A stretch of DNA of 64,000 nt from Natrialba taiwanensis DSM 12281 (lineage in GTDB: Archaea > Halobacteriota > Halobacteria > Halobacteriales > Natrialbaceae). Shown in pieces: positions 35,774 to 37,081 of the stretch (the stretch's first letter is position 1; the number at the start of each line of letters is the position of its first letter). The position numbers and the translations under genes are program-made. The stretch spans positions 7,320 through 71,319 of the forward strand of contig NZ_AOIL01000051.1 in NCBI RefSeq assembly GCF_000337595.1, given 5' to 3'. The notes under the pieces are model-generated. The model ran no database searches, was not told where the DNA came from, and saw nothing but the letters and a program-made list of their open reading frames with translations.

Positions 35774-35781
35774 TATTTATA
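35774..35781 (+). promoter_or_regulatory. TATA box of the DUF2899 transporter unit
   Basis: TATTTATA predicts transcription starting near 35803-35808, close to the ATG of the tiny upstream ORF at 35808. Confidence 0.5.
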
Positions 35782-35801
35782 CCATGGTGCTAAAGATATT
35801 T

Positions 35802-35815
35802 TTAGAGATGTCTAA
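35802..35815. promoter_or_regulatory. TTAG-n6-CTAA palindrome, possible metal-regulator operator
   Basis: TTAGAGATGTCTAA overlaps the predicted transcription start of a putative metal transporter. TTAG...CTAA palindromes are known operators of archaeal DtxR/SirR-type metal regulators. The link is inference from position and shape only. Confidence 0.4.
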
Positions 35816-35858
35816 TAATCGTGCCGTCGGATCGCAGGTTCCGAGTGAGAACTCGTGA
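35808..35858 (+). CDS. 16-codon upstream ORF coupled to the transporter
   Basis: ATG 35808 reads MSNNRAVGSQVPSENS and stops at TGA 35856-35858, which overlaps the transporter GTG (35855-35857) in the string GTGA. An in-frame ATG at 35784 would precede the predicted transcription start. A leaderless mini-ORF could load ribosomes and pass them to the GTG start. Confidence 0.4.
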   Translation: MSNNRAVGSQVPSENS

Positions 35859-37081
35859 ACGAGGCGCTGACGGTCCTTCTGGAATCGCTTCGAGATGGTT
35901 ATGTGCAGGTGAGTGCGTTCGTCGCGGTGACGATCCTCGCGTTCGGTCTGCTCCAGTACTACACCGACGGTGCCGTGCTCGCCGTGATCGAAGAGAACGA
36001 GCGATTACAGGTACTGTTCGGCGGTCTGCTTGGATTGACGCCAGGCTGTGGCGGAGCGATTATCGTGATGCCGCTATACGTCCGGGGAACGGTCAGTTTC
36101 GGTACTGTCGTCGCCACGCTCGGGGCGACCGCCGGCGACTCGGCGTTCGTCATCCTCGCGCTCGCCCCCGAAGCCGCACTGTACGCCTACGCCATCGCGT
36201 TCGCGGCGTCCGTGGCGACCGGCTACCTCGTCGACTCGGTCGGTCTGGGCGTCTCCCGAATCGATGCTGCCGTGGCTCAACTCTCGCCCGCCGCAACGCC
36301 CGACGGCGGAACCGTCGTCAACAGCAGTGTTGGACCGAACCCGGCCCACGACTACGGCGGTCCGGCACCAACACACTCCCACGAGACGGGACCGGATCGC
36401 CACTCGCGAGTTCTCACGCCGCTCTCGCATCTCGTCCACGTCGGCTGGTGGCTGAGCGCCGTCGCCGGGCTCATCCTCGGGACGCAGTACCTGCTCCAAG
36501 GTGGGCCCGAGGTCCCGATCAGACTCGGCACCGACTTCGCGGGCGCATTTACGGCCGTCGGCATCGTCGGTGCGGTGCTCTCGTTGTACCTCTACATCGT
36601 CGGCCGCCACTACGTGGGTGAAGGAGAGGTCGCCCGCGCTCGCGATTCGTTCGGCTCGGTCTACGAGACGCTTACCCACGCGGCGATGGAGACCAGTTTC
36701 GTCACCGTCTGGGTACTCGTGGCCTTCCTCGTCTACGAGTTCGGTGTCCTCCTGACGGGGATAAACGTCGCGACGGTCGCGTCGGCCGCGGGCGTGCTCG
36801 CGCCGATCGGCGGCGCGGTCGTCGGGTTGATCCCCGGCTGCGGCCCGCAGATTCTGCTGGCGAGCGTCTACGCCGAGGGCGGACTGCCCTTCTCCGCCCT
36901 GGCCGCCAACGCGATCTGCCAGGACGGCGACGCGCTGTTTCCGTTGCTGGCGGTCGACGCCAAAGCGGCCATCGTCGCGACGGTGTACAACTTCATCCCG
37001 GCGGTCGTCGTCGGCGTCGCGCTCCACCTGCTGTGGGGGCCCGTGTTCGGGATGGCCGAGTTCGGATTCGGCGTGCTCTGA
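35855..37081 (+). CDS. Putative manganese transporter (DUF2899/ArsP_2-like)
   Basis: 408 residues with about ten membrane helices arranged as two related halves: GLLGLTPGCGGAIIVMPLYVRG in the first and GAVVGLIPGCGPQILLASVYAEG in the second. The repeated G-L-x-P-G-C-G motif is the family signature and may line the transport path. Between the halves lies a His-rich soluble loop (THSHETGPDRHSR), a likely metal-sensing or metal-binding part. Family members are annotated as putative manganese transporters or arsenic-permease relatives; the substrate is not proven. The GTG start gives the family N-terminus and overlaps a tiny upstream ORF. A TTAG-n6-CTAA palindrome lies in the promoter. Confidence 0.82.
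   Translation: MNEALTVLLESLRDGYVQVSAFVAVTILAFGLLQYYTDGAVLAVIEENERLQVLFGGLLGLTPGCGGAIIVMPLYVRGTVSFGTVVATLGATAGDSAFVILALAPEAALYAYAIAFAASVATGYLVDSVGLGVSRIDAAVAQLSPAATPDGGTVVNSSVGPNPAHDYGGPAPTHSHETGPDRHSRVLTPLSHLVHVGWWLSAVAGLILGTQYLLQGGPEVPIRLGTDFAGAFTAVGIVGAVLSLYLYIVGRHYVGEGEVARARDSFGSVYETLTHAAMETSFVTVWVLVAFLVYEFGVLLTGINVATVASAAGVLAPIGGAVVGLIPGCGPQILLASVYAEGGLPFSALAANAICQDGDALFPLLAVDAKAAIVATVYNFIPAVVVGVALHLLWGPVFGMAEFGFGVL

Follow-up and report, generated by a model that had tools for sequence, protein, structure and literature searches.

A peptide-independent, near-leaderless mini-ORF that may feed haloarchaeal metal exporters by termination-reinitiation

How do ribosomes reach the start codon of a metal transporter gene that opens on a GTG, when this GTG is overlapped by the stop codon of a 16-codon ORF lying directly upstream? 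The question is raised by a locus of Natrialba taiwanensis DSM 12281, situated in a stretch of 64,000 nucleotides (the window, which forms part of contig C51 of the 4.6-Mb genome). The product of the gene belongs to the ArsP_2 family, and GTG 35855 is the first start available to it, because TGA 35846-35848 closes the frame upstream. The NCBIfam model for this protein bears the name 'arsenic efflux protein', and annotated plasmid homologues are named 'putative manganese transporter'; we regard it as a probable manganese exporter. Among named genomes, Natrialba aegyptia (98%) and N. asiatica (96%) have its nearest matches. The gene is accessory, with matches in 62 of 125 Natrialbaceae genomes and in 131 of 392 genomes drawn from the order, and it is absent from four of the six other Natrialba genomes searched. 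The gene tables of two plasmid regions that we inspected list the transporter and no mini-ORF, such tables being incomplete by design. The features of the locus are as follows:

35774..35781, forward strand: TATA-like element TATTTATA, beginning 34 nt 5' of the mini-ORF ATG.
35784..35786, forward strand: in-frame ATG of a 24-codon version of the mini-ORF, found in only part of the relatives.
35790..35816, forward strand: operator of three alternating half-sites, CTAAA-N6-TTTAG-N6-CTAAT, spanning the expected transcription start and containing ATG 35808.
35808..35858, forward strand: mini-ORF of 16 codons, reading MSNNRAVGSQVPSENS, from ATG 35808-35810 to TGA 35856-35858; near-leaderless as judged by promoter spacing.
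35844..35849, forward strand: AGTGAG, a weak form of a Shine-Dalgarno (SD)-like [AG]GTGAG block, inside the mini-ORF and 5 nt 5' of the start codon.
35855..35858, forward strand: GTGA stop/start overlap of 4 nt, the mini-ORF TGA lying over the transporter GTG (35855-35857).
35855..37081, forward strand: ArsP_2 (PF11449) membrane transporter of 408 aa (PF11449 match with E 2.2e-116).

The first-pass annotation of this DNA had described the ORF starting at ATG 35808 and its stop overlapping the transporter GTG, and the sequence confirms both. It had overlooked the operator surrounding ATG 35808 as well as the AGTGAG at 35844-35849, and its statement that the GTG has no Shine-Dalgarno is half right: the block is indeed weak here, but in the form GGTGAG it is conserved in relatives.

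We collected the DNA upstream of ArsP_2 homologues and analysed 175 of 176 loci, comprising 141 distinct regions. One locus (L073) was dropped as its match begins at residue 236, the anchor of another (L176) was shifted one base by hand, and several genomes are entered twice, under a name and under a G handle. Fragmentary or broken matches, such as those in G141, G154, G159, G163, G211, G213, G227, G262, G283, G284, G324 and G327, were left out of the upstream analysis, as were four homologues of 47-48% identity (G048, G049 C1, G056 C1 and G058 C10). An operator of the form TTAGA-N4-TCTAA, with at most one mismatch and within about 250 nt, was detected in 131 of the 141 distinct regions. A region was scored as having the mini-ORF if an ATG at or after the operator opened a frame of at least 5 codons, different from that of the transporter, with a stop at -4 to +8 of an in-frame transporter ATG or GTG located after the operator. 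This test was passed by 119 of the 131 operator-bearing regions, the overlap being retained in nearly all the close homologues and most of the distant ones examined. The first-pass annotation had named a lack of the mini-ORF in close homologues as grounds for refutation, and the outcome is the opposite. The ATG lies inside the operator in 95 of the 119, in either of two registers, 6 nt or 4 nt beyond the first T, and further downstream in the other 24, where it is 68-77 nt from the operator start in 19 cases. These mini-ORFs range from 7 to 49 codons and end in TGA, TAA or TAG. The RTGA type of stop/start junction (offset +1), seen at our locus as GTGA, prevails among the 95 operator-over-ATG loci (60 loci), followed by offsets of +5 (18), +8 (10), -4 (6) and -2 (1). 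In loci such as L143, L159 and L168 the operator has been relocated to a site 5' of a TATA-like element, at a distance of 68-77 nt from the mini-ORF that follows, an arrangement that resembles the one at the uptake ABC gene discussed below, and the overlap is retained.

Twelve of the 131 operator-bearing loci fail the test. In L056, L061, L063, L069 and L138 there is no mini-ORF and the transporter begins at or just past the operator. In L054 an early TAG ends the mini-ORF 8 nt too soon, the stops of L057 and L058 are ill-placed, L099 fits only by way of an ATG just 5' of the operator, and L158 fits only if the gene starts at TTG. L103 likewise starts at TTG, and its transporter match falls into two parts; with no ATG or GTG start in the counted frame, this locus was scored as a miss here and stands outside the 140-locus comparison given below. 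L009 (G023 C1:1244172-1245392) has an ATT in place of the mini-ORF ATG and an internal TAG in the transporter frame, and mini-ORF and gene may be decaying together in this genome. Among the ten regions without an operator, L053, L102 and L137 have no mini-ORF even under a looser rule. Given that some homologues fail the test and that several are devoid of any mini-ORF, the device is favoured and dispensable.

The position of so many of these ATGs raises a simple objection, namely that the ATG is a by-product of the operator (TTTAGAGATGTCTAA) and the overlap a by-product of a start codon followed by A, with the transporter being read from a leader of about 47 nt. The 95 of 119 ArsP_2 cases with the ATG within the operator are in line with this proposal, and an RTGA does result whenever the second codon starts with A. 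We therefore compared the loci with a background of 159 N. taiwanensis genes preceded by a gap of 80 nt or more. A simple gene caller was used to collect them from the window and from 400 kb on contigs C9 and C42, which together make up part of the 4.6-Mb genome. In an ATG-only test with starts allowed within 45 nt, 20 of the 159 background genes passed as against 108 of 140 transporter loci, and when only the first start was considered the figures were 13 of 159 and 91 of 140. When the upstream 60 nt were clustered at 62% identity, 19 of the resulting 41 clusters proved mostly positive (binomial p 1.2e-7, compared with a background rate of 12.6%). The overlap arrangement is thus commoner than chance. 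Three other N. taiwanensis genes passed a screen for a mini-ORF with a TATA-like element, C42:3465-5751 (+), C42:34670-37808 (-) and C9:184786-187261 (+), and are possible further coupled mini-ORFs.

The spacer between ATG and gene start also speaks against a by-product, being free of in-frame stops. We chose 47 distinct spacers for an ATG at -47 and an RTGA or TTGA start, irrespective of whether the frame was open, and found in-frame stops in none of them, where 5.1 would be expected from column permutation (P 0.0005) and 9.6 from shuffling. The third frame is closed in 45 of the 47, chiefly by the conserved [AG]GTGAG block. On the same 47 sequences the pN/pS of the mini-ORF peptide is 1.02 (bootstrap 5-95% range 0.92-1.15), no lower than the values of 0.90 and 0.98 in the other frames, and the residues that are conserved are those imposed by the operator and the SD-like block. 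An open frame without stops combined with neutral pN/pS points to a frame that is retained by evolution and a peptide that is not.

This bears directly on the suggestion in the first-pass annotation that the peptide might sense metal, which finds no support in its neutral drift, both here and in four small sets of mini-ORFs from a second exporter family, GDT1 (pN/pS 0.89-1.29). A leader-peptide attenuator or nascent-chain sensor, in which the peptide or its codons would sense the metal and control the transporter, could be entertained given that the mini-ORF lies directly 5' of a metal transporter and is found on both exporters and rarely on uptake genes. However, there is no conservation at the peptide level, the length varies from 7 to 49 codons, and we detected neither conserved sensing codons nor a conserved leader RNA structure: no covarying RNA pair was found in 15 aligned sequences, drawn from Natrialbaceae loci with a simple coordinate frame, and the fold z-score is -1.3. 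A scan of the whole window against Rfam yielded no match at the gathering score, including none to the manganese riboswitch yybP-ykoY. We consider such an attenuator very improbable. Even less credence is due to the view that the product of the mini-ORF is a functional small protein such as a subunit of the transporter; genes of overlapping pairs are reported often to encode partners (PMC10666635), but no protein-level sequence conservation is seen here. A function for the peptide was rejected on the basis of the neutral pN/pS. Programmed frameshifting between the two frames was also considered, and inspection by eye revealed no conserved slippery sequence.

The GDT1-family (PF01169) cation/proton antiporter gene of N. 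taiwanensis carries the operator core and a mini-ORF of its own, which reads MRGTVDDRVLSSGPFHG and ends in an ATGA over the GDT1 start. We examined the 48 best-scoring GDT1 loci, 35 of which have the operator and 13 of which do not. All 35 operator-bearing loci have an overlapping mini-ORF when either ATG or GTG is accepted as its start, 23 of them with ATG alone, and the stop offset is +1 in 33 of the 35. The 12 loci that pass only with a GTG mini-ORF start sit poorly with efficient leaderless initiation. The mini-ORF start is 22 nt from the operator start in 22 of the 35, the spacer behind it being variable, so that lengths run from 13 to 44 codons; one group of loci differs by 81 nt in this spacer (17 versus 44 codons) with the overlap retained. 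In the loci nearest to that of N. taiwanensis the mini-ORF has 15, 16, 17 or 44 codons, and in L227 it has 13, counted from an inner GTG. Taking the two families together, the mini-ORF start lies 20-100 nt from the operator start in 24 ArsP_2 and 35 GDT1 loci and the overlap persists, which is hard to reconcile with an ATG that merely comes with the operator.

The operator links these two exporters to a wider set of genes. The exact three-half-site pattern occurs once in the N. taiwanensis genome, at this locus, and a search allowing two mismatches gave 7 forward and 3 reverse matches as against 3 and 3 for the control; from this looser search we used the exact site and that at the uptake ABC gene (one mismatch, with the 14-base core exact). 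The 14-base core TTAGANNNNTCTAA has five sites in the genome (one for the reversed control), and for a 15-base form with a leading T the count is three, as against none in the control. Metal genes account for four of the five core sites, namely those for ArsP_2, a DtxR-family regulator with Fe_dep_repress, Fe_dep_repr_C and FeoA domains, the substrate-binding protein of an uptake ABC system, and GDT1. The operator covers the start region of the regulator gene, and the ABC gene is named on the strength of its own sequence together with that of the ATPase gene which follows. The fifth site, C9:1390-1403 (L180), lies just before a frame that by eye resembles a transposase; it could be a chance match or a mobile-element end, and was set aside from the analysis. 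The operator is thus common to the regulator, uptake ABC, GDT1 and ArsP_2 genes (loci L177 at C9:279434, L178 at C42:159441 and L202 at C28:39234, beside the ArsP_2 locus itself), as would be expected of a DtxR-family regulon, in which regulator gene and metal-transport genes have an operator in common.

With at most one mismatch, it was also found in 27 of 30 regulator homologues and 27 of 30 uptake ABC homologues, each sample comprising the 30 best-scoring loci with few exceptions, all from Natrialbaceae and with some of the ABC proteins only 31-41% identical. Gene order is in keeping with this grouping. A DtxR-family gene (62-64% identical to that of N. taiwanensis) adjoins GDT1 in G002, G004, G005, G013 and G014, and a second one (46-53% identical) adjoins the ABC gene in G021, G083, G097, G098 and G118. 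ArsP_2 and GDT1 themselves stand side by side on one strand in G119 (C1:2249768-2251846) and G213 (C49:11412-13584), which suggests that both exporters act on the same metal. These arrangements fit a single candidate metal regulon comprising a regulator, an uptake system and two exporters under one operator.

The mini-ORF is not distributed evenly over this candidate regulon. Among operator-bearing loci the mini-ORF test is passed by 2 of 27 regulator genes and 7 of 27 uptake ABC genes; in several of the seven ABC loci the ATG lies in or beside the TATA-like region, and the mini-ORF may therefore fall outside the transcript. Fisher tests, in which related sequences are counted separately, give p values of 9.6e-11 and 2.4e-15 for GDT1 against ABC and regulator genes, and 9.8e-12 for ArsP_2 against ABC genes. 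The operator alone fails to account for the mini-ORF on the efflux genes, because most regulator and uptake genes have the one without the other and because the mini-ORF start is outside the operator core in 24 ArsP_2 and all 35 GDT1 loci. The reading of ATG and overlap as by-products, confronted with an operator that is also present at regulator and uptake genes where the overlap is rare, and with a genome background of only 20 in 159, appears to us unlikely.

The place of the operator and of the promoter relative to the mini-ORF can be used to predict where the transcript begins. Most exporters have the operator over or beside their start site. Of the 24 ArsP_2 loci in which it is distant, 19 have it 68-77 nt before the start and 5' of a TATA-like element, and it is similarly placed at many uptake genes. 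When the 95 operator-over-ATG loci are aligned on the mini-ORF ATG, A+T content peaks at 0.89 at -34; 79 of them have a TATA-like hexamer that begins between -40 and -29, and none of the 95 has one in either adjacent 12-nt window. Aligned on the gene start, with 160 nt searched, the best A+T peak of these loci is 0.81 at -56. The operator register is equally sharp (0.93); since the ATG is within the operator, promoter spacing cannot separate the two. The other 24 ArsP_2 loci peak at -35 (0.74, or 0.62 when aligned on the gene start), and 9 of them have a hexamer at -40 to -29. The GDT1 peak, at -27, reaches 0.83 (0.68 when aligned on the gene start) and merges into the A+T-rich operator; 5 of the 35 loci have a TATA-like hexamer starting at -40 to -29, and 16 have one at -28 to -17. 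The spacing is clear in the operator-over-ATG set only. In archaea the transcription start is placed by a typical spacing from the TATA element, and by this measure transcription of the operator-over-ATG loci would start within a few bases of the mini-ORF start. A start near 35808 is accordingly plausible at our locus, and the in-frame ATG at 35784 probably sits 5' of the transcript. The earlier proposal of a mini-ORF close to the transcription start agrees with both comparison and promoter spacing, the start itself being a predicted one. A scan of the window for bacterial promoters and terminators, a method unsuited to archaea, returned nothing useful.

The region just 5' of the gene start is enriched in SD-like words, which were found in 49 of 77 ArsP_2 loci with an exact operator and the start at the anchor (11.3 expected from shuffles) and in 11 of 35 GDT1 loci (2.3 expected), with the weak form present at the window's own locus. 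Such words may assist reinitiation in many loci, though not in all.

Taken together, these observations lead us to regard the mini-ORF, with a good deal of confidence, as a near-leaderless upstream ORF whose peptide is immaterial and which supplies the exporter with ribosomes by termination-reinitiation, as part of a metal regulon. The transporter mRNA would begin at or within a few bases of AUG 35808, and ribosomes would load on this 5'-proximal AUG as on other leaderless haloarchaeal mRNAs. The 16 codons would be translated, their identity being irrelevant, and termination at UGA 35856-35858 would be followed by reinitiation on the overlapping GUG, with the SD-like block inside the mini-ORF assisting. 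A transporter start that lies about 47 nt into the transcript would profit from ribosomes delivered in this manner. The operator over the start site would control transcription, its probable binder being the DtxR-family regulator whose gene bears the same operator, and GDT1, an unrelated exporter of the same putative regulon, would use the same device. The comparison argues for a kept frame and overlap, an unconstrained peptide and, in operator-over-ATG loci, a fixed promoter spacing, and so lends support to the coupling of mini-ORF and transporter start put forward in the first-pass annotation; the 5' end, translation, reinitiation and binding by the regulator are inferred, and so would be any statement on which metal is handled or on whether the regulator represses or activates.

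Where the metal would be sensed is a separate matter. The likelier sensor, compared with the peptide, is a DtxR-family regulator whose gene bears this operator. The translation rate, also named as a possible sensor in the first-pass annotation, may play a part. A metal-dependent translational switch lacking peptide specificity can also be envisaged, in which a metal such as Mn2+ would alter leaderless initiation or reinitiation on efflux genes only. The mini-ORF does mark the two efflux genes of the operator set and only rarely the uptake and regulator genes, but the regulator bearing the same operator already supplies a transcriptional sensor, and some homologues manage without a mini-ORF; we rate this switch as distinctly improbable. 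The more specific proposal of translational control confined to efflux, with metal status acting on leaderless initiation or reinitiation at both probable Mn exporters, likewise has a rather small chance of being correct. If true, it would represent a metal response requiring neither peptide nor RNA structure, at a position where bacteria use a riboswitch. The plain reading, with reinitiation serving to adjust a membrane exporter to a suitable level, seems to us more likely than metal-responsive coupling.

The preferred mechanism of termination-reinitiation from a near-leaderless mini-ORF can be set against published systems. In Haloferax volcanii 72% of protein-coding transcripts are leaderless; GTG performed poorly on leaderless mRNAs in two mutant studies, and 118 native leaderless GUG transcripts have been mapped (PMC4983044). 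SD motifs were reported to be without a role in de novo initiation at 5'-UTRs in this organism (PMC3986360) and to be amply used for haloarchaeal reinitiation, overlapping pairs having been strictly coupled in the 9 cases tested, with one adjacent gene pair of Sulfolobus reported as uncoupled (PMC6728339). The H. volcanii reinitiation pairs (Huber et al. 2019, PMC6728339) come from the same class of organism and resemble our locus in their overlaps of 4 nt or 1 nt, a short stop/start overlap being present here as well. Many of them have an SD motif inside the upstream ORF, which at our loci is found in part of the cases and is weak in the window itself. They differ from it in that both partners are ordinary genes, whereas the upstream partner here is a mini-ORF without protein constraint. 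The upstream ORFs that H. volcanii has in long 5'-UTRs (Babski et al. 2016, PMC4983044) are also short and precede genes that include some for transporters, but they number 16, lie in UTRs of 150-250 nt, are presented in a section that does not take up overlap with the start of the next gene, and include none named as belonging to the ArsP_2 family in Table 2 of that paper. According to a 2025 review, the delivery of ribosomes by means of short uORFs may be a widespread phenomenon (PMC12548453).

The closest parallels outside the archaea are the coupled leaderless small ORFs of mycobacteria (Shell et al. 2015, PMC4633059), which share with our locus a short ORF linked to the gene by RTGA. In mycobacteria this ORF comes first in a leaderless transcript, as is predicted here, and its suggested role does not necessarily depend on the sequence of the small protein. 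Unlike the present case, they are bacterial and were described as a genome-wide class; here one archaeal gene family has kept the arrangement across families with neutral peptides, and so has a second exporter under the same operator. The 5'-terminal uORFs of Escherichia coli (Beck et al. 2016, PMC4965119) place an AUG, as is predicted here, at the mRNA 5' end before a leadered gene, and removal of this AUG can lower downstream expression, to below 8% in the case of ptrB; in contrast to our loci, the downstream genes have SD leaders, and the ptrB effect is partly independent of uORF translation. Among the titles and opening lines of abstracts of the open-licence papers listed as matches, we did not find the arrangement described on haloarchaeal efflux genes. 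Coupled leaderless small ORFs are thus known from mycobacteria, and their deeply conserved use on haloarchaeal efflux genes may be new, judging from the papers so listed.

Coupling uORFs are known mostly from lists of footprints or transcription starts, and their evolutionary importance is seldom clear. The case described here is that of a coupling ORF, apparently free of any peptide function, that has been kept across haloarchaeal families and also occurs on an unrelated exporter with the same operator. It yields a concrete candidate for a haloarchaeal metal regulon and suggests that annotated gene sets can lack the ORF with which such transcripts really begin.
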